This document shows, in pieces, positions 12,230 to 33,589 of a stretch of DNA of 34,467 nt (positions are counted from its first letter, which is position 1; each line of letters opens with the position of its first letter). Both the position numbers and the translations under genes were made by a program. Under the pieces are notes generated by a model. It searched no databases and had not been told where the DNA came from. It saw nothing but the letters and a program-made list of their open reading frames with translations. The stretch comes from Clostridia bacterium. Lineage in GTDB: Bacteria > Bacillota > Clostridia > Oscillospirales > CAG-272. The DNA lies in the NCBI GenBank assembly GCA_017501245.1, contig JAFVXI010000029.1, forward strand, positions 1 through 34,467. Reading direction: 5' to 3'.

Positions 12230-14146
12230 ATGGGACTGCAAAATAAAAGGCGCCTGACGCTGATATTTATTGATTTCGGCATTATGGCGTGCGTTTACAC
12301 TTTCGCTTTCTTCCTTATGCTTTTGGCTGGAGCCGCAAATCAGGATGAGCTGTTAAAGTATTTTCTCAGCCTGCTTTTGTTTGCCGCTTGTATGTTTGGC
12401 GCAAGGCTACTACTCAGGGTGTACTCAAACGTATGGCGCTACGCTAACGCAAAGGCGTATCTCGGCATAGTTATCGCCGACGTCCTCGGCGGCATAATCG
12501 CTCTGTTTATAAGTATTTTTATCAAATATATTTTCCTTGGCGGATGGCATAGCGTCGCAATAGTGGCGATGATGACGACGGCAACCCTCGTGTCTCGCTT
12601 CGTCTATCAGCGCATACACAAGTCGGCATCCAAAGACAAGGGGGACGGGGTGAATAAGATCACCGTAGCGATCATCGGAGCGGGCCAGGTCGGTGCGCTT
12701 CTTGCAGAGGAGCTGCTATACTTCCGCGGCTCGCATTATCGTCCCGTAATGTTCGTTGATAAGAGCCGTGATAAGGTCGGCAGCCGTGTCGAGGGCATAC
12801 CGGTATACGCCGAAACCGATGACGTCTTTGAGATCATGCATTCCTACGGCGTGCAGGAGATTTTTATTGCCATCCCCCAGCTTACCTCCGACCGTGCAAG
12901 AGAGATGTTTGAGTATTATAGCCAGAGTGGCTGTAAGGTCAAGCTTTACGATTTTGCCATAGGCGCAGAGCATGGCAGTATGGAAAGTGATAAGAGAGTT
13001 ATTCGAGAGTTTAATATCGAGGATCTGCTTTTCAGAAGCTCGATAGAGGTTTTAGACGGGGCGTCCCGTGATTTCTACCGTGATAAGGTCGTTCTGATAA
13101 CGGGCGGCGGCGGATCGATCGGAAGCGAGCTTGCAAGACAGGTCGCTAAATGCTCCCCGAAGCATCTTATCATCTTCGACATTTATGAAAACAATGCTTA
13201 CGACATCGAGCAGGAGCTCTTACGCAGGTATAAGGGCGAGGTGAAGCTCAGCGTAGAAATAGGCTCGGTCAGAGATCCCGCAAGGCTTGACGCCGTATTT
13301 TCAAACTATCGCCCGGATATAGTGTTCCACGCAGCGGCTCATAAGCACGTTCCGCTTATGGAGCATAGCAACAGCGAGGCTATAAAGAACAACGTCCTAG
13401 GCACGTACAACACCGCAAACGCCGCAGAAAAGTGGGGCGCTGAGCGATTCATCCTCATCTCCACCGACAAGGCGGTCAATCCTACCAACGTAATGGGCGC
13501 ATCAAAGCGCATGTGCGAAATGGTCGTGCAGTGCCGCCGAGATAGCGACACGGTCTTCAGTGCGGTCAGATTTGGCAACGTTCTTGGCTCGAATGGATCG
13601 GTCATTCCCCTCTTTAAGCGCCAGATCGCAGCGGGTGGTCCCGTTACGGTTACGGACAAGCGTATCATCAGATACTTTATGACAATACCCGAGGCGTCCG
13701 GCCTCGTTATGCAGGCGGGTGCTATGGCGAGATGCGGCGAGCTGTTCGTGCTTGATATGGGCAAGCCGGTCAAGATCTACGATCTCGCTGAGAACGTGAT
13801 CAAGCTCTCCGGCCTTCGTCCCTACATCGATATCGAAATAGTCGAAACCGGTCTTCGCCCCGGTGAAAAGCTCTATGAGGAGCTCCTTATCAGAACCGAG
13901 GAGCTTGAAAAGACCGAGAACAACCTGATCTTCATCGAGCATGACACGCCTCTTTCCCGCACCGAAATAGAAGAAAAGCTTAAGATCCTTCGCACTGCGG
14001 TAAAGGATGCGGAGGGCGAGATTGGCGCTTTATCCATTACTGAGGCTATGAAGATGGTCGTTCCCACCTTCCATTCTCCCGACGAGGTTAATAGAACGGC
14101 AGAGGACGCCGAGGAGATGAAGAGCATAAACACTGCGAGAAGATGA
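12230..14146 (+). CDS. Membrane-anchored nucleotide-sugar 4,6-dehydratase (CapD/WbpM/PglF type)
   Basis: The 638-residue protein has four N-terminal membrane helices (about residues 10-125). A first Rossmann domain follows (IIGAGQVG near 148-155), then the catalytic short-chain dehydrogenase domain beginning with TGGGGSIGSE near 291-300. STDKA (about 410) and M422-GAS-K426 give the Met-for-Tyr active site typical of WbpM and relatives. FMTIPEA and ETGLRPGEKLYEEL are further family signatures. Such enzymes convert UDP-GlcNAc to a 4-keto-6-deoxy sugar for diacetamido sugars of surface glycans. No glycan cluster surrounds it here. The ATG at 12230 has AAAGGAG 8 bases upstream. A terminator follows at 14243. 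The precise product sugar is unknown. Confidence 0.9.
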   Translation: MGLQNKRRLTLIFIDFGIMACVYTFAFFLMLLAGAANQDELLKYFLSLLLFAACMFGARLLLRVYSNVWRYANAKAYLGIVIADVLGGIIALFISIFIKYIFLGGWHSVAIVAMMTTATLVSRFVYQRIHKSASKDKGDGVNKITVAIIGAGQVGALLAEELLYFRGSHYRPVMFVDKSRDKVGSRVEGIPVYAETDDVFEIMHSYGVQEIFIAIPQLTSDRAREMFEYYSQSGCKVKLYDFAIGAEHGSMESDKRVIREFNIEDLLFRSSIEVLDGASRDFYRDKVVLITGGGGSIGSELARQVAKCSPKHLIIFDIYENNAYDIEQELLRRYKGEVKLSVEIGSVRDPARLDAVFSNYRPDIVFHAAAHKHVPLMEHSNSEAIKNNVLGTYNTANAAEKWGAERFILISTDKAVNPTNVMGASKRMCEMVVQCRRDSDTVFSAVRFGNVLGSNGSVIPLFKRQIAAGGPVTVTDKRIIRYFMTIPEASGLVMQAGAMARCGELFVLDMGKPVKIYDLAENVIKLSGLRPYIDIEIVETGLRPGEKLYEELLIRTEELEKTENNLIFIEHDTPLSRTEIEEKLKILRTAVKDAEGEIGALSITEAMKMVVPTFHSPDEVNRTAEDAEEMKSINTARR

Positions 14147-14242
14147 TATCGAGTCTTCTATGCTTGTGTCTGTCTGATCGTATTTTATCGCTTGGTCGAT
14201 ATAGACTTTTAGCCGTATTATTCTTCCTATATATTATATAGC

Positions 14243-14285
14243 AAACAGCCACCGACAAGGATTGTCCCTTGAAGGTGGCTGTTTT
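14243..14285 (+). terminator. Terminator of the dehydratase gene
   Basis: An 11-bp stem aaacagccacc / ggtggctgttt, with a smaller inner stem gacaa/ttgtc, is followed by a short T-run. Confidence 0.8.
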
Positions 14286-14640
14286 GTGTCCTTTGAGCTT
14301 TTCTATCATCGCTTATCGACTTCAGTGGGGGAGGGAAGAATAGGTAAAGGCTTTCTACTATCTTCTATAAAGCGTTTATTGCGTCTGTCGAGGCTAATTG
14401 ACAGCCTAAACCCGGTTGCTTGTTATCACTATGCCGTTTGCGTTGAAAAAATCGTTTGACAGCCGAAGTGAAACGATGCATCGACCGCCAACGATGTCAA
14501 AAGATGGATCTGACTGCCACTGAAGTGAAAAAAGAGCCAATTGCCGCAGATGCGAAACGTTGGATAGATAATCGCTTATGCGAAAAAATGACGCAGCTTG
14601 CTACCGATAAGAAGCGTAGGGTCAAAGCTTCGGCAAAAGA
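14286..14640. repeat. Gene-free stretch with degenerate direct repeats
   Basis: I see no convincing gene here. Related segments recur: ttgacagcc at 14398, ttgacagcc-gaagtgaaa at 14456, ctgactgcc-actgaagtgaaa at 14510, then atgcgaaacg near 14550. A TTG-initiated frame (14456-14680) shows matching repeats KRCIDRQRCQKM and KRWIDNRLCEKM. It has no ribosome site and runs into the hairpin of a terminator. Possibly the eroded remains of a repeated sequence. Confidence 0.35.
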
Positions 14641-14671
14641 AAAGGGCATCTGCCGAAATTGGCAGATGCCC
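14636..14671 (-). terminator. Terminator of the repeat lipoprotein gene
   Basis: An 11-bp perfect stem gggcatctgcc / ggcagatgccc (14644-14671) is followed on the minus strand by TTTTCTTTT. It lies 15 bases after the lipoprotein stop codon. Confidence 0.8.
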
Positions 14672-14686
14672 ATATGTTAGTTTGGA

Positions 14687-16804
14687 TTATCCAAGGGGAA
14701 CCCAAGGAAGGGTGTTGGAGTTGGGGTTAGCGCCACAGTTGTCGCACTTGCCGTCAGCGTCGCCATCGTTATGAGTGGTCTTGCCGCAGCTGTCGCAAAT
14801 ACAGTCGTTGTTCTCATCCTTGTGCTGGATCTGAACGGTTGCACCGCAGTTCTCCTTATCGCACTTACCGTTGCAGTCGCTGTCAACGTGCTGGATCTGA
14901 ACCTCTCTGTTACACTTGTCGCACTTACCGTCGCAGTTGTCATCAACGTGGTCAACCATGCAGATGCCACACTTGTCGCACTGGAAGTCCTCGTTTCCGT
15001 CAACGTGAACTACCTCAACGTCGGTGCCGCACTTGTCGCACTTGCCGTCGCAAAGAGCGTCAACGTGGATTACTGCAAGACCCTCAACGATACACTTGTC
15101 GCACTTGCCATCGCAGTTAGTGTCAACGTGCTCGCCAAGGCACTTAAGGCACTTAGAGCATACGCCGTTGCCATCGTCTACGTGAACGATCTCAAGGTTC
15201 TCAACGATACACTTGTCGCACTTGCCGTCGCAGTTGCCGTCAACGTGGTCAGCGGTGCACTTAAGGCACTTCTCGCAAACGCCGTTCTCGTCGATGTCCT
15301 TATGAACGATCTCGATCGATGCGCCGCAGTTAGCCTTGTCGCAGATGCCGTCGCAGTTGTCGTCAACGTGCTTGATCTCAAGTCCGGTGACAACGCACTT
15401 GTCGCAGTTGCCGTCGCAGTTGTCGTCAACGTGCTCGCCGATGCACTCAACGCAGGTGTCGCAAACGCCGTCACCGTTCTCATCAGCACAGTCGGAGACC
15501 TTGTGATCACAAACGTCACACTTGTGGTTCTTATCGGAGTCGATGTGAACGCCGGTGCAGCCCTGGCACTTATCACATCTGGAGTCGTTGTTATCGTCCT
15601 CGTGGGTGATCTCAAGATCGGTAACGATACAAAGGTCGCACTTGCCGTCGCAGTTGTTATCAACGTGCTCGCCTACGCATCTCTGGCACTTGTCGCAGAT
15701 GTTGTCGGTGTTGGCATCCTTGTGCTCAAGAGCAACCTCAGCCTCACACTTATCGCACTTAGCGTCGCAGTTGTTATCTGTGTGAACGATCTCCATAGCG
15801 TCGGAGCAGTTGTCGCATGCGCCGTCACAGTTGTTATCTGCATGACCCTTGATGCAGATGGAGCACTTATCGCACTTACCGTTGTTGTCAGCATCTAAGT
15901 GAGTGATGCCAACCTCGGTATTACACTTGTTACAAATACCGTCGCAGTCGGAGTCGTCGTGATCCTCGATGCACTTTACGCACTTCTCACAGACGCCGTC
16001 CCCGTTAGCATCAACGTGGTTGATCTCAACCTCGCCGCCGCACTTGTCGCACTCGCCGTCGCAGCCTGCATCGATGTGGTTGATAGCAACCTCGTCGCCG
16101 CACTTGTCGCAGATGCCGTCGCAAAGATCGTCAACGTGATCGCCTACACAATTCTCACACTTGTCGCACACGTCGTCGCCGTCAGCGTCAACGTGGTTGA
16201 GCTCAACTGCTGCACCACAGGTGTCGCACGCTGCGTTACAGTCATTGTCCTCATGAGTGCCGTCCGCACAGGACTTACACTTGTCGCAGACGCCGTTGTT
16301 GTCAGCGTCAACGTGAACTACCTCGATGGTAGCACCGCACTTGTCGCACTTGCCGTCGCAGGTAGCGTCAGCGTGAGCAACCTCAACGTCAGTTCCGCAG
16401 GCATCACACTCGCCGTTGCAATCAGCATCAGCGTGAACGCCGTCCATGCAGTAAGAGCAGTTATCGCACTTGCCGTCTGAATCGTCATCAATGTGGTTAA
16501 CCTCTACGTCAGCATCGCACTTGTCGCACTTGCCGTCGCAGTTTGCGTCGACGTGCTCAACAGCAACCTCTGCTTTACACTCGTCGCACTTGCCGTCGCA
16601 GTCGGCGTCAACGTGCTCGTCGCACTTACCGCCGACGAGATCGCCGATGATGGGGATGTTCTCAAGACTTCCGAGAACGCCTTCAAGCGTATCAGCGATG
16701 CCGGGGCCTACGCCGGGGATCTGCTCGATAGCGTCACAGGAGGTGAACGAGAGAACGAGGGCTACTACGAGCGCCAGAATGGATAGGATCTTAGTAATTT
16801 TCAT
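14687..16804 (-). CDS. Lipoprotein made of about 32 Cys/His/Asp-rich repeats
   Basis: From ATG 16804 the protein has 705 residues. Residues 1-24 are a signal sequence (basic MKITK, hydrophobic LALVVALVL) ending in FTSC, a probable though slightly atypical lipobox, so it should be lipid-anchored outside the cell. After a linker of about 35 residues come about 32 units of roughly 20 residues with the pattern H-x-D-x-(N/D)-x-D-G-x-C-D-x-C. Units with an extra Cys before DG and a tail like VEVxH alternate irregularly with units ending CxxCxxC. The D-x-N-x-D-G part resembles calcium loops of dockerin or thrombospondin type 3 repeats, and the Cys/His positions suggest zinc or disulfides. Its role is unknown. 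AGGAGA lies upstream; ATG 16807 is an alternative start. The gene is divergent from the GH2-like gene. Confidence 0.85.
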   Translation of the reverse strand: MKITKILSILALVVALVLSFTSCDAIEQIPGVGPGIADTLEGVLGSLENIPIIGDLVGGKCDEHVDADCDGKCDECKAEVAVEHVDANCDGKCDKCDADVEVNHIDDDSDGKCDNCSYCMDGVHADADCNGECDACGTDVEVAHADATCDGKCDKCGATIEVVHVDADNNGVCDKCKSCADGTHEDNDCNAACDTCGAAVELNHVDADGDDVCDKCENCVGDHVDDLCDGICDKCGDEVAINHIDAGCDGECDKCGGEVEINHVDANGDGVCEKCVKCIEDHDDSDCDGICNKCNTEVGITHLDADNNGKCDKCSICIKGHADNNCDGACDNCSDAMEIVHTDNNCDAKCDKCEAEVALEHKDANTDNICDKCQRCVGEHVDNNCDGKCDLCIVTDLEITHEDDNNDSRCDKCQGCTGVHIDSDKNHKCDVCDHKVSDCADENGDGVCDTCVECIGEHVDDNCDGNCDKCVVTGLEIKHVDDNCDGICDKANCGASIEIVHKDIDENGVCEKCLKCTADHVDGNCDGKCDKCIVENLEIVHVDDGNGVCSKCLKCLGEHVDTNCDGKCDKCIVEGLAVIHVDALCDGKCDKCGTDVEVVHVDGNEDFQCDKCGICMVDHVDDNCDGKCDKCNREVQIQHVDSDCNGKCDKENCGATVQIQHKDENNDCICDSCGKTTHNDGDADGKCDNCGANPNSNTLPWVPLG

Positions 16805-16874
16805 CATCTTTCTCCTAATTAAAAATTGTGTAATGTGCACCCGCTGACGCGGGAATACCTTTCACATTGTAGTC

Positions 16875-16903
16875 ATTATAACATAAAAAATAAAGTATTG
16901 CAA
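16875..16903 (-). promoter_or_regulatory. Promoter of the repeat lipoprotein
   Basis: TTGCAA (16903-16898) and TATAAT (16880-16875) are separated by 17 bp on the minus strand. The leader contains a small hairpin cccgc-tgac-gcggg (16840-16853). Confidence 0.75.
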
Positions 16904-16982
16904 TAGTTTTTTATAAAAAATGACCATGAGAGCCACAAATTGGGAAAAAGCAATAAAAAAATAAAGAAAAATTTGTATAGTA

Positions 16983-17011
16983 TTGAAAGTCGGCGAAATA
17001 TATGGTAAAAT
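16983..17011 (+). promoter_or_regulatory. Promoter of the GH2-like gene
   Basis: TTGAAA (16983-16988) and TAAAAT (17006-17011) are separated by 17 bp. It lies 30 bases before the ATG at 17041. Confidence 0.7.
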
Positions 17012-17040
17012 AAACATACCAAAAATGAGGGAGGTTGCTA

Positions 17041-19143
17041 ATGATCGTTAAACAAATATCCCATTTCAAGCTGTCAGTCGGAGATCACAAGGATATAGAT
17101 CTTGATGCGCCGTCCTCGGTGTTAACCGTTGCTGCAAGGCGGGGGATCATCCCGGAGCCTTACACCTCAAGTGGGAGGAGCGCTGCGATAAGTCTGCTTT
17201 CCGGCGAGGTCAGGCTTTTCGCCGAGTTTGAGCTTGACGCAGGACTGTTATCTATGGATCACCTTGAGCTATACGTGGGCGGAATAGATTCCGTCGGCGT
17301 TCTTTACGTAAACGGGTCGCCCATCGCCGCTCTCGCCTATCCCGCATCTCCCTACTCCTTTGACGTAAAGGGGATGCTGAAATATGGCAAAAACAGCATT
17401 GAATTGCGTCTGCCGCCGAGATCCGCCGAAAAGCTTTCGGACATCTGTATATATATGCCGATCGAGCTCAGGTCCTACACGGGCGAGAAGATAGATCGGG
17501 TAACTGTATCTCAGTCTGCAGATTCAACCAAGGCTCGCATTTATATTAAAATGACAACAAAGGGTTACAAAAAAGCGAGCAGGGCGGTGGCGGTGCTAGT
17601 CTCTCCCAGCGGAAGCGTAAGCTATTGCACTCTTAGGGACGGCGAGGGCTGGCTTGACATCCCGTCGCCAAGCCTGTGGCGCACCGGCAGAAGTAACGCT
17701 CACCCGCTATATCGCCTGACAGTTAATTTATATTCCGAAACCGAGCTTTCCGACTCCTATGAGTGCTTGATAGGCATCAGGACACTCTCTATATCTGAAG
17801 ACGGAAAACTTCTCCTTTCCGATAGCGTATATTGCCCCACCGCCGTCAGAATGACGGGATCGGATATTATTAAGCCTCGCTTTGCTGCTAAGCAGGAGCT
17901 CCTCCTCACGAGGCTTTCCGAGTCGGGTGCAGATATGCTGTATTTGTCGAAGCTTGACGCATATCCCGACGAGAGCTTTCTTTCGCTATGCGATAAGCTT
18001 GGAATTGGCTTGGCGATAGAGGTCATCGACCCGGGCAGCGCCTCCGGTGCAGTTGAGCAGAGGCTCAGAGAGGAGCATTTCATTAGGGCTCTTTCAAGGC
18101 TTTCGCTCCACCCATCTGTGATGATCCTCACAGGATCGTCGGACCCCGTAATGCATAAGTTAATTAATAAGGTAATTTCGGAGCAGCTCTCCGGCACAAT
18201 ATACCTTCCCGACTCGGCGAGCCGTCTGGCCATTCCGTCGGCTATGATGAGTGAATATACGGCGAGAGCCTATTCGTCGAACGGAATTCTGAATATCCTT
18301 AGCCCCGAGGTGCCTAGGATCGACGCTGATGGGATGCGGCTTCTTATGGAGGCTGTGATGGGCTGCTATCTGATGCCGAATGGCGATCGCCAGTGGCGTT
18401 ATCTCTCGGGCGTTGCCTCAGGAGCAGGGCTCACCGAGGCTGTTGCGTCCTGCAGGCTTAATAGCTCTCGCCTCGGCACTGTCTCCGAGCTTACCGATCC
18501 CCACCCCGCGGTTTCTCCATCCCTTACAGACTATCTCGGCAGAGTCAAGGCAGGCTATTATTATCTGAAAAGAGCGTCGATGCCAAACGCCGTTTATCCC
18601 GTAAGGAACGGAAGTAATGTTTCCTTCTGCGCCGCAAATATGTCAACAATTGATTACACGGCGACGCTTTCATACGGTATAAGTGACAGCGAAAACCGCG
18701 TTTTAGTGCGTGATGTCATAACGTATTCGGTGCCGCCTATGTCGGTTTCCAAGGTTTACGAGTATGACTTTTCCGAGATCATATCGGGCAGAGAAGAGGA
18801 GGTTTACCTCTGGTATTCGGTAACGGATAAAAGCGGTTCAACTCATCCCGAAACGGTTCTTTTCGTCAAGGACTCCGAGTTTAAGTATAAGGAGGCTGAC
18901 GTTGAGGCCGAGATAGTTGGCGCAGGATGCGATTACGTCATTACGGTGAGAGCAGGCGTATTCACAAGGTCTTTAGCTATTTCCTTTACAGGCGATACCG
19001 ACGCTACTTTTGAGAATAACTATTTTGACATCGTTTCGGAGGTTCCCGTAAGGCTGAAGCTGCGCACTCAGCGTCCAACGGCAACCGAAACTCTAAAACG
19101 CGAGCTCCTGCTTATCTCAATGAACGACGTGGGCAGGAAATGA
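17041..19143 (+). CDS. Shortened GH2 beta-mannosidase-like protein
   Basis: The 700-residue protein has the sugar-binding beta-sandwich of glycoside hydrolase family 2 (FAEFELDAG ... LELYVGGIDSVGVLYVNGSPI near 60-100). It also has an Ig-like domain, a remnant catalytic region and the C-terminal mannosidase Ig domain (NNYFDIVSEVPVRLKL). Active beta-mannosidases carry NE as acid/base and SEYG-type nucleophile motifs about 90 residues apart. Here the acid/base position reads HPSVMILTGSSD (Asp368) and SEYTARAYSS (Glu405) follows only 37 residues later. The chain is also about 120-150 residues shorter than usual. It may be catalytically inactive or have altered specificity. No signal peptide is seen. 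ATG 17041 is favoured over TTG 17035 because AGGGAGG (17028-17034) is 6 bases away. Confidence 0.75.
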   Translation: MIVKQISHFKLSVGDHKDIDLDAPSSVLTVAARRGIIPEPYTSSGRSAAISLLSGEVRLFAEFELDAGLLSMDHLELYVGGIDSVGVLYVNGSPIAALAYPASPYSFDVKGMLKYGKNSIELRLPPRSAEKLSDICIYMPIELRSYTGEKIDRVTVSQSADSTKARIYIKMTTKGYKKASRAVAVLVSPSGSVSYCTLRDGEGWLDIPSPSLWRTGRSNAHPLYRLTVNLYSETELSDSYECLIGIRTLSISEDGKLLLSDSVYCPTAVRMTGSDIIKPRFAAKQELLLTRLSESGADMLYLSKLDAYPDESFLSLCDKLGIGLAIEVIDPGSASGAVEQRLREEHFIRALSRLSLHPSVMILTGSSDPVMHKLINKVISEQLSGTIYLPDSASRLAIPSAMMSEYTARAYSSNGILNILSPEVPRIDADGMRLLMEAVMGCYLMPNGDRQWRYLSGVASGAGLTEAVASCRLNSSRLGTVSELTDPHPAVSPSLTDYLGRVKAGYYYLKRASMPNAVYPVRNGSNVSFCAANMSTIDYTATLSYGISDSENRVLVRDVITYSVPPMSVSKVYEYDFSEIISGREEEVYLWYSVTDKSGSTHPETVLFVKDSEFKYKEADVEAEIVGAGCDYVITVRAGVFTRSLAISFTGDTDATFENNYFDIVSEVPVRLKLRTQRPTATETLKRELLLISMNDVGRK

Positions 19144-19312: not shown

Positions 19313-21730
19313 TCAGCTCTCGCCGATCATCCTTTCCTTCGAGCAGGTGTAGTATAGCACCTGCTTTTCCTTTGCGATGCTTCTGATCAGCTCCTTGGCG
19401 TAAACGAGCTTATCAGAATCCAGGTTGGTAAACGGGTCGTCAAGGATGACGAGCGGCAGTGCTCCGCCGAAGAGCGAGTCGGAAAGCGCAAGACGCAGGC
19501 AGAAGGAGTAGAGATCCCTTGTTCCTCTGCTGTAGCTTTCGTGATTTCTCATCACCCCCCTGTCGTGCTTCGTGAGCAAAAAGGTCGTGCTGAGCGAGAA
19601 GTCGCCGTCGGTTCCCAGTAGCTTGACGTAGTGGTCAAAGCGCTCCTTGGTGCCGCCGATATATCTCGAGGTCATTGCCTCCGACGCCTCCTTCAGCAGC
19701 TCGTGCGTCAGCTTGATCGCCTCGAGGTTGCCCTCGTATTCCGAAAGTCTATCCTTCAGCGCATCCTTCATAGATGAAACCTCGTCGATACGCTCGACGT
19801 CTGCCAGGAGCTCGTTGTAGTCTCTTTTCAGAACGGCATCCATTCTTCTTTGCTCGAGTATCTCACTGTCGAGCTTGCCAAGAGCTTCCTCGAGCATAGG
19901 TATCTCGGATGCCCCTCTGACGCTCAGCTCAGCGTCGGAAATAGCGTGCTGTTCCTTGAATCTTCTCGCCTCCTCCTCGTGTCTTGTGAGTGACATCTCG
20001 GCGTATCGGTAAGAGTTTAGACGTCTTCTGATCTCATCAAAGGGATCGGGCTCCGACGTTTTATATTTTTCTAAGAACTGCCGTGCCTTGTCGGCAAAGA
20101 AGCTTATGCGGAAGTCGACGTCGCGTCGACCCTCCTCGTTAAGCTTTGCCTCGGTGGAGAGCTTGTAGAGTTTTCTGAATGCCTGCTCGATCCTTTCTAT
20201 CGCCTGTGCATCGTCGACGGCATCCTTCTCATATCTTGCAACGAAGGATGAGATCCTTTCCGAAAGCGTCGAGATCCTTCCTTCGAGCAGCTCGATCCGC
20301 TCCTCGTCAGCCTTGACGGATCTCTCGTGATCCTCTATCCTCGCTGTCAGCTCGCTAAGCCTCTTGGCTTTATCCGATTTAATGCCGATAGAATCGCAAA
20401 AGGCGTTCGCCTCTTTCTTGACTCCGACTGAGCTGACGAAGGCGATGAGTGCAAAAACGACTCCTATCACGCCGACTATAGCTGCAATGATATATTCTCC
20501 CAAAACGGCGCATACAGAAGCTCCGATAACTGCCAAAACTAAGGCGATAACGCCAAGCGGCGACACATTTGTTTTTGCCAGAGTCTCCGTATGCTTTCTT
20601 AGCTCATCGGAGGTCGGGATCCTTCCGGAAAGCTCATCCTGTAAAGTTTCATTTGCAAAAATGCGATTTTTACGTATAATATCAGCCTCGAGAACAGAAT
20701 CGTTTCGCTCTTTAAGATCGTGCTTTATCGCCTCTATCTCGCCGAAATCCGTGGGGCTGACAAAGTATTCCTTAAGCTCGAGAAGCTCGGGGGACTGTCC
20801 GTCACGCCTCTGTGCTTCAAGCTTTTTTGCGGTAGCGTGGGCATCGTACGCCTCGTTTATCTCGAGGTCCGTCGGAACGCCGGAGGCGAAGAATTCCTTA
20901 AGCTCGGAAAAGCTCTTGCGCTCACGCTCAAGCGACGCAAGCATATCCGCATACTGCTGCGCATAGCCCATTCTTGCCGCTTTTATCCTCTCGCCATGAA
21001 GCCTCTCGTCGATCTCGCTGCGCCTTTTTTCAAGCTCGGCGATCCTGCCTTCAAGTGCAGTGAGCTCGTCCTCTTTTTTGTCGAGCTGCTGTCTCGCTGC
21101 TTCGAGGTTGACGAGCGCCGTCTCACATTCGCTGATCTTCGCCCTCAGGGTTGGGATCTCGCCTTGATTTCCTCTTTTCTCATAAAATTTCCTGCGCTCC
21201 TCGAGCTTATCAAGCGCACGGCTCACCTCGCCCGCATCACCTGTTGTGCCGGCAAGGTCGGATAGCTTGGCGGCGATGCTGTCGTTTTTGATGGCTCCCT
21301 CGACGTTCTTCTCCGAAAGGAATACCGTCCGCAAAAAGCCCTGCGCATCGATATCAAAGATCTCGTAGCCGAGGTTCTCGGTATAATCTGCGCTGACCGT
21401 GCCGCGCTCAAGGTCGTAAAGACGGAATTCATCGTCCTGCGCCGTCGAGCCGAAGCTTCGCTCGATGCGATATCTCTTTCCTCCCTCCTCAAATGTCAAT
21501 GAGCCGCCGTAGCGACCGCCCTGCCAGGGGAGGTATTTTTTTCTGTCGTTTTCATCAAGCGACACCTTTCTGTCGGTGTTCAGTCCGTATAGCATAGACT
21601 TGATGAAAACGGTAAAGGTCGTCTTTCCCGCACCGTTTTCCGCATATGTTGAGTTTAACCCGTCGGTGAAGCTGTGCGAAACTCCGGAAAGCGAGCCGAA
21701 ATTTTCAATGTAACACTCTAAAAGCTTCAT
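19313..21730 (-). CDS. YhaN/SbcC-like SMC-type ATPase
   Basis: The 805-residue protein has an ABC/SMC-type ATPase head split between its two ends. Walker A is ENGAGKTT at 31-38. The signature-like SRGTRDLYSFCLRLALSDSL and Walker B LPLVILDDPFTNLD are near 735-765. Between them lie long charged coiled-coil segments (about 165-340 and 445-690), interrupted by two membrane helices at about 388-433. That central membrane hairpin is characteristic of YhaN of Bacillus rather than SbcC. With the nuclease encoded upstream it should form a DNA-processing complex at the membrane; the role is inferred from the family. ATG 21730 has GGAGG 5 bases upstream and is 9 bases from the nuclease stop. Confidence 0.88.
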   Translation of the reverse strand: MKLLECYIENFGSLSGVSHSFTDGLNSTYAENGAGKTTFTVFIKSMLYGLNTDRKVSLDENDRKKYLPWQGGRYGGSLTFEEGGKRYRIERSFGSTAQDDEFRLYDLERGTVSADYTENLGYEIFDIDAQGFLRTVFLSEKNVEGAIKNDSIAAKLSDLAGTTGDAGEVSRALDKLEERRKFYEKRGNQGEIPTLRAKISECETALVNLEAARQQLDKKEDELTALEGRIAELEKRRSEIDERLHGERIKAARMGYAQQYADMLASLERERKSFSELKEFFASGVPTDLEINEAYDAHATAKKLEAQRRDGQSPELLELKEYFVSPTDFGEIEAIKHDLKERNDSVLEADIIRKNRIFANETLQDELSGRIPTSDELRKHTETLAKTNVSPLGVIALVLAVIGASVCAVLGEYIIAAIVGVIGVVFALIAFVSSVGVKKEANAFCDSIGIKSDKAKRLSELTARIEDHERSVKADEERIELLEGRISTLSERISSFVARYEKDAVDDAQAIERIEQAFRKLYKLSTEAKLNEEGRRDVDFRISFFADKARQFLEKYKTSEPDPFDEIRRRLNSYRYAEMSLTRHEEEARRFKEQHAISDAELSVRGASEIPMLEEALGKLDSEILEQRRMDAVLKRDYNELLADVERIDEVSSMKDALKDRLSEYEGNLEAIKLTHELLKEASEAMTSRYIGGTKERFDHYVKLLGTDGDFSLSTTFLLTKHDRGVMRNHESYSRGTRDLYSFCLRLALSDSLFGGALPLVILDDPFTNLDSDKLVYAKELIRSIAKEKQVLYYTCSKERMIGES

Positions 21731-21739
21731 GTCGCCTCC

Positions 21740-22807
21740 TTATATCTCTAAGTCGTCGCCGAGCAGCGCACGTATTCCCAGCCTGATAACTCTGTCCCGA
21801 GCCTCCTCGTCGATGTCGGTACGTGAGCTGACAAGTCGAATGAACTCGCCCTTAAGCGTTTTATCATAGGCGTATTTCATCGGGTCGATCTTCATTTTTG
21901 ATTCATCCTTCAGCTCGAGATAGTAAAATCTCGACTGCCAGCGCTGAAGTATGGCATCCCTGTCGGCGTAAAGCTCGGGAGGTCGCTCGCCGACGATAAG
22001 AATCCTCACAAGGTCGGTCGGCGCTATACCCGCCAGAGCATCTGCGATAGCGTCCTCAATGTCAAGCCTACGCTCGAGTCCCGATATATCCACCTTGACG
22101 ATCCTTATGCGCCTCTTTGCCGCAGGGCAAAATCTGTAGCCGACGGGCGACGAATCAGTGTCGATAAGAACGAATCCGTGCTCTCCCGGCTCGTCAAAGC
22201 CTCTTCCCTCGGGAGAACCGCAAAAGACGGCTGAGCAGCGCTCGTCGATCCTGTATTCGGTGTATGAATGATAATGACCGAGCGCAATATAGTCGATCCC
22301 GCGTCTCGACGCCTCCGAAAGGCTGATCTCCTCTCCGGATGTTGCGTGGTCAACGACGGCTCCGTGTAAAACGACGATATTCTTTTTATCCCTATCGACC
22401 GTCAGCTCGGAGAACATCGTCGGGCTGGGTATATTTCTACCCCAGATAACCGTGTCACCGTAATCGAACGAGCTCCATCCGTCGGAGAAGATGCGAAGAT
22501 TGTCGGGCTTGCGGTCTATTTTATTAATGAAGGCTTCTCCCTCGTGATTGCCCCTTAAGTAGAGGAAGTCCATCTCGGGGTGGCGCTCGATCAGGTTCGT
22601 CACTCTCTCGGCGGCTCGCTTCGTTATCCTCTCGGTGTCAAAAAGATCTCCGGCTATGATAACGGCTCTGCAGCCCATCCTCGACGCCTCCTCGATCATT
22701 CTCGACAGCACGAGGAAGAGCTCCTCCTTTCGCTCCTTCACCTGTGAGGGAGCGAGCTTCACGAATGAAGACTCAAGATGTATGTCCGCCGTATGTAAAA
22801 TCCTCAT
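21740..22807 (-). CDS. YhaO/SbcD-like metallophosphoesterase (DNA nuclease)
   Basis: The 355-residue protein carries all motifs of the calcineurin-like phosphoesterase family: DIH at 8-10, GDLFD at 53-57, GNHE at 86-89, VVLHGAVVDH, and GHYHS. Two metal ions are bound by these residues. C-terminal sequence (YLELKDESKMKIDPMKYA) matches the YhaO/SbcD-type capping domain. It probably works with the adjacent YhaN-like ATPase as an Mre11/Rad50-like nuclease. The ribosome site AGGAG lies within the last codons of the PocR/AraC gene. The start is 3 bases after that stop, so translation is likely coupled. Confidence 0.9.
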   Translation of the reverse strand: MRILHTADIHLESSFVKLAPSQVKERKEELFLVLSRMIEEASRMGCRAVIIAGDLFDTERITKRAAERVTNLIERHPEMDFLYLRGNHEGEAFINKIDRKPDNLRIFSDGWSSFDYGDTVIWGRNIPSPTMFSELTVDRDKKNIVVLHGAVVDHATSGEEISLSEASRRGIDYIALGHYHSYTEYRIDERCSAVFCGSPEGRGFDEPGEHGFVLIDTDSSPVGYRFCPAAKRRIRIVKVDISGLERRLDIEDAIADALAGIAPTDLVRILIVGERPPELYADRDAILQRWQSRFYYLELKDESKMKIDPMKYAYDKTLKGEFIRLVSSRTDIDEEARDRVIRLGIRALLGDDLEI

Positions 22808-22810
22808 ATG

Positions 22811-23680
22811 CTATCTCCTTTTTATTGCTTCGTCGGGGTCGGGAAGTGCATCATAGCCGAAAAGCGGCGCATCCTCGCTTGCCCACTCGCTGGGCGGCGT
22901 GCCAAACCTTGCTGAAAACACCTTCGAAAAGTACGATTGATCCGAATATCCGCACCTGAGAGCTATCTCTCCGATGCTCATATCGCCCTGCCTCAAAAGG
23001 TGTACGGACTCCGCAAGCCTCACCTCATTAAGATAGGCGTTGACCGTCGTGCCGTACTCCTTTTTAAACGCCGTAATGAGCGCAGACTTTGAGCAGCCAA
23101 CCTCGCGGCAGATACGATTTATACTGATTTTTGTATGGAAATGTAAAGAAATGTATTCTTTTGCCAGGTGTGCGACCGACAACTTGTTGCTGGGAATGGC
23201 GTGAGAAACCGTCAGATACTGTGCGCACACGGTCATTATCCTTATGAAGGATGGCACGAGCTCTGGGTCTGCTGAGGGGATGGATCCAAGAGCTGCGACG
23301 AGCGCCTCTTTATCTATATCCTTCTTGGAGAGCGCCTCCAGCGCATGCGCCTTGTCTGCGTCATCCTCGTAGACCTGCCCCATCATCAGAAAGCCCGTGA
23401 GAGTTCCGAAATTGTAAAGCGGGCTGACCGCCTCGGTCATTCCGTAGCGGCATCTGTATATGTGTGCGCCCTTCTTGTCTATTGCCGCCTTGCAGGCCTC
23501 GTGGTCGCTCTCTACGCACCTTTCATACTCTCCGGGAATAGCCTGTATAAGTCGGCACAGCTCGCATTTTGGCTTTGGATATGCGGCGATCTCTCCATAG
23601 TCGGCGCTGTGGAGCGAGATGCGGAAGCCGGTTATTTTATGTAGATCAGCAAGTGTTGCAACGATCTCTTCTTTGGTCAT
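22811..23680 (-). CDS. AraC-family regulator with PocR ligand-binding domain
   Basis: The 289-residue protein has an N-terminal PocR-type sensor domain (about residues 5-155): a cysteine-rich pattern CELCRLIQ, ERCVESDHEAC, HIYRCRYGMTEAVSPL, and GFLMMGQV. An AraC-type double helix-turn-helix domain follows (about 170-265: ISINRICREVGCSKSALITAFKKEYG, then SIGEIALRCGYSDQSYFSKVFSARFG). PocR domains are thought to bind small molecules such as hydrocarbon derivatives. The ATG at 23680 has GGGAGG 5 bases upstream. It is the first gene of the operon with the YhaO/YhaN pair and is divergent from the double sugar kinase. It could control either or both; neither is proven. Confidence 0.9.
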   Translation of the reverse strand: MTKEEIVATLADLHKITGFRISLHSADYGEIAAYPKPKCELCRLIQAIPGEYERCVESDHEACKAAIDKKGAHIYRCRYGMTEAVSPLYNFGTLTGFLMMGQVYEDDADKAHALEALSKKDIDKEALVAALGSIPSADPELVPSFIRIMTVCAQYLTVSHAIPSNKLSVAHLAKEYISLHFHTKISINRICREVGCSKSALITAFKKEYGTTVNAYLNEVRLAESVHLLRQGDMSIGEIALRCGYSDQSYFSKVFSARFGTPPSEWASEDAPLFGYDALPDPDEAIKRR

Positions 23681-32751: not shown

Positions 32752-32780
32752 AAAAGAAAAGAGCGACTATCCGTCGCTCT
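32752..32780 (-). terminator. Terminator after the first 63-codon gene
   Basis: The stem agagcgac / gtcgctct is followed on the minus strand by TTTCTTTT. Variant copies with poorer U-tails recur at 33024-33043 and 33292-33311. Confidence 0.75.
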
Positions 32781-32799
32781 TCTAATTTAATCGAAAGAT

Positions 32800-32991
32800 T
32801 TACTTGATACGAAAACGCTCTATTTCCTCTCGGGTGAGGTCTGTATATGCCTTTCCGTTTTCTTTTGCATACTTTCGTATTCCAAGATCATCAAATTTGC
32901 CATGATCTTTCGGCCTAACGGGATCAAGCCCACCGCAAGCCATCATATCAAGGGCTTCGTCCATCTCTTCACGGGTAGGTTTTCTCTTCAT
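32800..32991 (-). CDS. Small protein of unknown function, copy 1
   Basis: From ATG 32991 the product has 63 residues. It begins MKRKPTREEMDEALDMMACGG, contains LDPVRPKDHGK and a central KYAKENG, and ends LTREEIERFRIK. It appears helical and highly charged. The second copy differs mainly in residues 15-20 and 35-50, and the differences keep the frame, which suggests both were selected as proteins. A TTG 24 bases earlier is rejected because AAGGAGAT lies between it and the ATG with correct spacing. I do not recognise a family; a DNA-binding or antitoxin-like role is only a guess. Confidence 0.7.
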   Translation of the reverse strand: MKRKPTREEMDEALDMMACGGLDPVRPKDHGKFDDLGIRKYAKENGKAYTDLTREEIERFRIK

Positions 32992-33067
32992 TAACGCTAT
33001 CTCCTTTGGTAGCAATATATATCAAAGCGACTATTTGTCGCTCTTCTAATTTTATTTATCGAAAGAT

Positions 33068-33259
33068 TTACTTGATACGAAAACGCTCCATTTCCTCTCG
33101 GGTGAGTTTGTTATAGGGTATGCCGTTGTCTTTAGCGTATTTGACGATGGCATTCATATCATACTTGCCATGATCTTTCGGCCTAACGGGATCAAGTCCA
33201 CCACAAGCCGCCAAGTCGAGGGCTTCGTCCATCTCTTCACGTGTAGGTTTTCTCTTCAT
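33068..33259 (-). CDS. Small protein of unknown function, copy 2
   Basis: This 63-residue paralog of the neighbouring gene begins at ATG 33259 behind the same AAGGAGAT site. It reads KRKPTREEMDEALDLAACGG, LDPVRPKDHGKYDMNAIVKYAKDNG and ends LTREEMERFRIK. Identity with copy 1 is about three quarters by eye, and N- and C-termini are nearly identical. Only a weak hairpin (33024-33043) follows, so transcription may continue into copy 1. Confidence 0.7.
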   Translation of the reverse strand: MKRKPTREEMDEALDLAACGGLDPVRPKDHGKYDMNAIVKYAKDNGIPYNKLTREEMERFRIK

Positions 33260-33355
33260 TAACGCTATCTCCTTTGGTAGCAATATATATCAAAGCGACT
33301 ATTTGTCGCTCTTCTAATTTAATTTATCGAAAGATTTACTTGATACGAAAACGCT

Positions 33356-33589
33356 CTATTTCCTCTCGGGTGCATCTGACTTGATGGGCTTGCCCCATAT
33401 GTTTAGGCCTTTGGCGTAATTGTCTTTGGCTTGCTTGATGGTTGTATGGTTTTCAGATGAATAAAAATCATCGGGAGCCTCGTTTTCCCATCCACACACC
33501 ATCCAATCACAAACCGGGCAAATATCTTCGTAGTCGCCCTTGAAATGATGACCGCAAATCGGGCATTCTAAATTAATTGATCTCTTCAA
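33356..33589 (-). CDS. CPCC-type cysteine-rich zinc-ribbon protein, chimeric 3' end
   Basis: The 77-residue product carries two zinc knuckles, CPICGHHF and CPVCDWMVCGW, then SENHTTIKQAKDNYAKGLNIWG. This is the pattern of the cysteine-rich CPCC family (function unknown). The start is TTG 33589, with GAGGTGGG 7 bases upstream; the nearby ATG is in another frame and soon stops. The last codons (APERK and the stop) are read out of frame from the truncated third copy of the small-gene repeat, so the original C-terminus was lost or replaced by recombination. Confidence 0.7.
   Translation of the reverse strand: MKRSINLECPICGHHFKGDYEDICPVCDWMVCGWENEAPDDFYSSENHTTIKQAKDNYAKGLNIWGKPIKSDAPERK

Follow-up and report, generated by a model that had tools for sequence, protein, structure and literature searches.

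Gram-positive anaerobes are thought to exclude Cys from their exported proteins (‘cysteine exclusion’), in eukaryotes small Cys-rich repeats outside the cell frequently contain many disulfides, and metal sites of three Cys and one His usually bind Zn tightly, a property better fitted to a structural role than to exchange. Calcium loops of the EF-hand/dockerin kind are defined by acids or amides at loop positions 1, 3 and 5 and an acid at position 12. In the Gram-positive Lactococcus lactis, the membrane proteins Llmg_0524 and Llmg_0526 hold Zn via a CX2CX10CX2C motif (PMC4628341). We analysed a window of 34,467 nucleotides (the whole stretch of DNA under study, contig JAFVXI010000029.1 of the Clostridia bacterium assembly GCA_017501245.1, here genome G000) with a gene for a probable zinc-stapled stalk or metal holder, of a kind for which the libraries searched (Pfam and NCBIfam) offer no family name.

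Neither library contained a family that exceeded its curated cut-off on the array of units that makes up this protein, the below-cut-off matches being to DUF6520 (E 0.0051) and zf-FPG_IleRS (E 0.018), and a known protein family was therefore rejected as its identity. Sequence and profile searches of the PDB returned nothing significant (best E 0.0082); most of the weak profile matches are to what we take to be proteins with structural zinc sites, such as GATA, the adenylate kinase LID, the ClpX zinc domain and S27ae, a haem protein being among the exceptions, and any CxxC profile may draw such zinc-protein matches. No publication on the H-x-D...C-D-x-C unit was found in open-licence PMC main text, either by the letters of the unit or, among the matches listed, by topic.

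A lipoprotein of serial Cys- and His-rich units

The open reading frame was read from the ATG of MKITKILS at position 16804, a GTG at 16840 and an ATG just upstream also being open (Table 1). Residues 1–23, MKITKILSILALVVALVLSFTSC, read as a lipoprotein-type signal with basic N-terminal residues, a hydrophobic stretch and a lipobox Cys, in agreement with a PROSITE-type lipobox pattern; the ortholog described below departs from this pattern at one position, by reading, yet retains Cys23, which is presumably lipidated. A linker of 37 residues separates C23 from C61, and nearly all of the protein is array, with no cargo domain. A preliminary description, made from the letters alone, had proposed a lipoprotein built almost entirely of about 32 metal-ligand-rich units with 90–100 cysteines, and this account is borne out at the sequence level: 32 consecutive units span residues 64–697, and the 705-aa protein has 97 Cys (the lipobox C23, C61 just before unit 1, and 95 within units), 33 His, 124 Asp and 3 Arg.

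The units are 17–22 residues long (about 20 aa on average, n = 32). The single repeat consensus given earlier conceals two main types: type A, H1-x-D-x2-C6-[DN]-G-x-C10-D-x-C13, and type B, H1-x-D-x6-C10-D-x-C13-x2-C16. Type A has Cys at 6, 10 and 13 in 16 units and at 6, 10 and 15 in two further ones, while type B, with Cys at 10, 13 and 16, accounts for 9 units with His1. One-off ligand sets comprise a unit with C8, a shortened B, the last unit with three ligands, and the atypical pair at residues 420–457, of which the first has two Cys and three His and the second has Cys replacing His1.

Table 1. Coordinates of the array gene, its parts and neighbouring features in the window
Feature	Position	Strand	Basis or remark
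Array lipoprotein CDS, 705 aa, stop included	14687..16804	-	Open reading frame; supported by ortholog
Signal peptide and lipobox, last residue Cys23	16736..16804	-	Sequence; agrees with PROSITE-type pattern
Linker residues 24-60 and C61 (leading ligand, GGKC-DE-H; GGEC-TE-H in ortholog)	16622..16735	-	Sequence, ortholog
32 tandem units, residues 64-697	14714..16615	-	Order AABAABABAABABAABABoBAABABAABAAoo (o, other)
Two atypical units, residues 420-457	15434..15547	-	Both retained in ortholog
C-terminal tail GANPNSNTLPWVPLG, 15 aa, ends TLPWVPLG	14690..14734	-	Sequence
CapD/PglF-like nucleotide-sugar dehydratase (Polysacc_synt_2), marker of conserved locus	12230..14146	+	Pfam match
GH2-like (mannosidase-like) protein	17035..19143	+	Pfam match
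AAA_23/SMC-like ATPase, metallophosphoesterase, PocR/AraC regulator	19313..23680	-	Syntenic
Extended -10 type promoter match TTGCAA-17-TATAAT	16875..16903	-	Consensus match only
Leader with hairpin CCCGC-GTCA-GCGGG (ortholog CTCGC-GTAA-GCGAG)	16805..16868	-	Sequence comparison
Intrinsic-terminator-like hairpin, 11 pairs, then T run	14644..14671	-	Consensus match only

Upstream of the gene, the -10 region of the promoter match is retained in the ortholog, and a C-G pair of the leader hairpin has become T-A there, a compensatory change (fold z -1.9 and -3.2). The leader site occurs as a single copy in each of the two genomes, which rejects a leader common to other genes, and by eye none is present at other arrays; Rfam gave only matches below the gathering score in 14100–17100. 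Scans for promoters (5 sites against a shuffle mean of 3.1, s.d. 1.8) and terminators (2 sites against 3.1, s.d. 2.0) were both at about chance level. A mobile or phage origin was rejected, with no confirmed viral-contig relative and no plasmid or phage match at 1e-6. A direct repeat of 268 bases in 2.3 copies (88% matches) lies elsewhere in the window, at 32762–33372.

Ligand count and selection against an ortholog

When units are cut at each first His, 30 of the 32 carry exactly four Cys/His, with exactly three Cys in 29 and exactly one His in 30, while the position of the fourth ligand varies, being found at C6, C8 or C16 or arising via His/Cys swaps. In the ortholog, the same cut leaves exactly four Cys/His in 30 of 33 units. 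Cutting after each CxxC instead gives four ligands in 9 units, five in 12 and three in 11 (mean 4.03). Four per unit is thus robust to the cutting phase as a total only, the 32 units sharing 129 Cys/His counted from C61 onwards, or about four each, and the sequence does not choose the phase. No unit has both the early (C6) and the late (C16-type) Cys: the window protein has early only in 18 units, late only in 11 and neither in 3, and the ortholog, with one unit skipped, has 17, 12 and 3.

The variance of the ligand count is lower than in all 5,000 column shuffles, three Cys plus one His occur in 29 units against a residue-shuffle mean of 3.0 (maximum 11), and the window contains 13 matches to a 13-codon type A DNA pattern against a mean of 0.00 in 100 shuffles, although the units are related through duplication, so that these shuffle figures and the Fisher figures overstate independence. 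The residue and DNA-pattern shuffles reject chance or low complexity as the origin of the array. Unit borders for the counts of ligands, selection and loop positions were set by hand from regular-expression output, and unit counts depend on the pattern used, the ortholog giving 28, 32 or, after a double segment was split by hand, 33.

In a collection of genome contigs, the type A DNA pattern matched 22 stretches, those with 12 and with 5 matches both belonging to one sheep-colon Clostridia metagenome-assembled genome, RGIG5535 (G562), and the other 20 having a single match, in many cases in a protein or frame that lacks an array. RGIG5535 encodes the true ortholog, a syntenic 697-aa protein of 33 units that is identical to the window protein at 395 of 687 aligned residues (57%). 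This value lies in between those of the neighbours, which are 74% for the CapD-like protein, 50% for the ATPase and 41% for the GH2-like protein; these three genes and the phosphoesterase gene stand in the same order in both genomes. The ortholog keeps 96 of the 97 Cys and 32 of the 33 His, one His1 of the window protein is aligned with a Cys, and the A/B order is equal in 32/32 units, one extra B unit standing in front. Synonymous difference between the two array genes is 0.72 per site overall (pS), and nonsynonymous difference is 0.012 per site at Cys/His codons versus 0.34 at other codons; for Cys/His codons alone, the synonymous value is above 1, beyond correction.

A neutral low-complexity expansion with no particular role would fit the differing repeat number between species at this locus, but hardly seems credible beside such strong purifying selection on Cys/His and a fully retained unit order at this synonymous distance. 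The near-constant four ligands, the exchange of His for Cys and the freezing of both residues in the ortholog together strengthen the Zn-type part of the earlier proposal, which had joined zinc-like ligands to a calcium-like loop in each unit. We consider a four-ligand metal site per unit likely and, with somewhat less assurance, zinc the probable metal.

The calcium-loop half of that proposal fares poorly. The units have a DxDxDG-like stretch in common with EF-hand, dockerin and thrombospondin type 3 repeats, with D3 invariant (57/57), D/N at position 7 in 54 and G8 in 46 of the 57 canonical units, and the ortholog gives a weak EF-hand_1 match (E 0.024, under the cut-off), all of which would suit a calcium rod of these kinds with Cys in a secondary part. 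Such a rod is nonetheless quite improbable, as loop position 12 is acidic in only 12/57 units and loop position 3 is D/N in only 44/57, several loop acids are missing, only 6 of 25 unit pairs compared with the ortholog agree at position 5, type A places a Cys within the loop, and Cys and His are the most frozen residues.

The order of ligands allows two readings of the phase. Counted in fours from C61, the ligands up to the atypical units fall into 18/18 groups of C-H-C-C and leave one over; counted from His1, the same stretch gives 18/18 groups of H-C-C-C. C-H-C-C is slightly favoured, because both species keep a leading Cys (GGKC/GGEC) ahead of the first His and because a fourth ligand is missing from the last unit. 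If C61 and the last CxxC were both used, and the Cys pair of the type A CDxC served neighbouring metal ions, the chain could form one continuous metal-stapled fibre rather than beads on a string; in that case the sequence of A and B units would define the geometry of an extracellular rod of 32 metals, and this would account for its retention in 32/32 units. We regard such a fibre as unlikely, and a lost Cys in the ortholog, which moves the C61-based phase after the second group of four, speaks neither clearly for it nor against it.

The spacings CX3CX2C (type A) and CX2CX2C (type B) resemble known Fe-S sites, and 32 closely spaced sites of this kind, with His as a further cluster ligand, might form an iron-sulfur conduit or a thiol redox buffer. 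The signal is of the lipoprotein type without twin arginine, so clusters would need to form outside, and no redox partner was seen among the window genes (seven scanned with Pfam, the rest by eye), which makes this role very improbable. A haem protein or multihaem cytochrome was rejected on the count of CxxCH sites, of which the array protein has 0.

Arrays at the same locus and related units elsewhere

At a threshold of 1e-60, a CapD-like match was present in 42 of 69 genomes of the genus, and 20 of these loci were read (the window, G562, G559, G022 and 16 more; 22 weaker loci were left out). An array stands at the CapD locus in 5 of the 20 (G000, G562, G559, G022 and G011). A six-frame check of the fetched stretch revealed no array in G574, G012, G035, G567, G568, G561, G028, G569, G025, G551 and G002, and the contigs of G013, G017, G439 and G560 run for no more than about 0.7 kb past CapD and are uninformative on array presence. 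At this spot G012 has a 315-aa lipoprotein-like open reading frame without an array (L133 2420–3367), whose end resembles, by eye, the Endonuclea_NS_2 lipoproteins L011 and L019.

Pure arrays are found at this CapD-side locus in G562, G011, G559 and G022. The statement in the preliminary description that such units appear as a few copies in larger surface proteins is true of many proteins of the genus, but pure arrays recur as well and the window protein is not unique. The same-locus arrays count 8 units in G011, 17 in G559, 15 and 17 in tandem genes of G022 (pattern-dependent: 10 and 14, 15 and 17 cores, or 12 and 15), 32 in the window and 33 in G562, the last two being the longest arrays found. 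All share with the window a CapD-like neighbour, a lipoprotein-type start and about four ligands per unit, whereas those of G011, G559 and G022 differ in having 8 to 17 units per gene, mostly C-x2-H-x8-C-x2-C rather than types A and B. The G011 locus has the GH2-like, ATPase, phosphoesterase and PocR-like genes in the order of the window; in G559 and G022 a DUF11 protein takes the place of the GH2-like neighbour. Tails similar by eye to that of the window protein (LPSVPLS, LPPHYFG, LPPHEFN, FPEMPV) end the arrays of 4 of the 5 syntenic genes elsewhere; the fifth, the first of the G022 pair, has a different tail that is not of the LPxxPL type.

Beyond this locus, the ortholog protein found matches at E 1e-8 in 12 of the 69 genus genomes (G000 and G562 included), and a profile of the unit found matches at 1e-4 in 22 of the 196 genomes of the family, spread over 15 of 71 genera and counting G000, and at 1e-3 in only 4 of 299 phylum genomes (own included), searches by which single units would be missed. 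Two species have a second pure-array locus, L120 5371–6243 (G567) and L121 5427–6389 (G568), with tails GSTDSDxS, adjoining a protein of 1213–1239 aa and, by eye, a PHP-like protein. Small open reading frames with single or few similar units occur on Lachnospiraceae and Gemmiger contigs (L049, L052 and L061), L052 having a His-rich stretch behind the unit.

Several lipoproteins of the genus carry related units between the lipobox and NlpC/P60, Endonuclea_NS_2, Big_3 or unnamed parts, with copy numbers across genus proteins from 2 to 33. These carriers resemble the window protein in their H-x-D...C-D-x-C units, often placed after the lipobox, and differ from it in having other domains and fewer units, where the window protein is the array itself. 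Cys makes up 12.5% of array residues (202/1612) in ten carrier proteins, versus 1.4% (55/4007) in the parts behind. Two homologous NlpC/P60 lipoproteins, L002 1–1800 in G000 and L051 2976–6464 in RGIG5535, have 2 and 14 units, respectively, and are identical at 255 of 548 residues in the aligned part; they form a natural length series before the same cargo. Units are C-terminal in at least six proteins (L009, L010, L013, L014, L021 and L029) and lie inside the chain, not directly behind the lipobox, in L004, L025 and L068.

Outside the window family, 36 loci, 34 in the genus and 2 in other genera of the family, supplied 280 distinct units, with four ligands in 184, three in 40, five in 51 and more in 5. 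C-x2-H-x8-C-x2-C is the commonest ligand set, and H-x6-C-x-C-x2-C and C-x6-H-x-C-x2-C also occur; L011 1201–2619 has HxYDNACDTDCNEC units with the type A spacing C-x3-C-x2-C. A preceding Cys alone is present in 157 of the 280, an inner Cys alone in 13, both in 5 and neither in 105, 49 of these last having Cys1 and an inner His, so that the exclusivity is only moderate (p 0.012, with units that are not independent).

A candidate zinc-stapled stalk

Our best explanation, to which we give an even chance, is that the array protein would be a stalk anchored by lipid and stapled by zinc, with 32 knuckles of four ligands each and a short exposed tail. Each set of four ligands, mostly three Cys and one His, would hold one Zn(II) that gives the unit of about 20 residues its fold, and an exported Cys-rich chain could in this way become a semi-rigid stalk without disulfide enzymes. 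Its base would sit at the membrane lipid and its far end would display the short LPxxPL-type C-terminal tail, while in sister lipoproteins the same kind of stalk may bear enzymes instead.

Whether serving as a stalk would be its main function seems evenly poised. Spacer-like units in other lipoproteins, the NlpC/P60 homologs with 2 and 14 units, the length series at the same locus and the concentration of Cys in the arrays of the ten carriers argue for a stalk; the C-terminal or internal units of some proteins, the lack of a cargo domain in the window array and a strict order of unit types (32/32) that a stalk would not need argue against it. Among the rivals, the strongest one still open is a metal store, buffer or sponge, which would exist for its capacity to take up some 32 Zn or other thiophilic ions on each chain, as a reserve or as protection from toxic metal. 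The very high number of ligands, a protein that is array throughout and the frozen Cys/His would all suit a store, but capacity likewise needs no fixed unit order, the related units of several other lipoproteins look spacer-like, tight Zn sites of the three-Cys-one-His kind favour structure over exchange, and no metal transporter, sensor or resistance gene was seen among the window genes (seven scanned with Pfam, the rest by eye). We hold a store to be a minority possibility; the data lean towards the stalk and do not decide.

The preliminary description had also offered a redox buffer or a disulfide-stiffened stalk, neither of which is favoured, as VKOR, DSBA and DsbB each exceeded the cut-off in 0 of the 69 genus genomes (DSBA gave two weak sub-cut-off matches), a search for thiol oxidases that comprised these three families and in which only 22 of the 69 genomes reach 90% completeness with contamination of no more than 5%. 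Controls among 14 known genomes were positive in 3, 8 and 6, respectively, and clostridial DsbA and VKOR do exist elsewhere (PMC12453122). A rod held by oxidative pairing of its Cys, with the acidic loops serving simply as polar spacers, would follow the eukaryotic precedent, and pairing between units would permit an odd number of Cys. With three Cys rather than an even number in 29/32 units, and with His conserved equally and exchanged with Cys, we find such a rod improbable.

A genus with this result for VKOR, DSBA and DsbB exports a chain with 97 Cys. If zinc is bound by these Cys, the part of disulfides in stapling surface stalks would fall to metal. The zinc-stapled stalk, if true, would represent a protein rod of a new class, account for a set of repeats that lack annotation in one gut Clostridia family, and make metal supply relevant to the surface architecture of these Clostridia. 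Llmg_0524 and Llmg_0526 are likewise Gram-positive membrane proteins with Zn bound via a Cys motif, but have one site per protein (PMC4628341). Structural zinc knuckles and ribbons such as those of GATA, the adenylate kinase LID, the ClpX zinc domain and S27ae have the same four Cys/His per site; those are single, intracellular sites, whereas the window protein would line up 32 in series along an exported chain.
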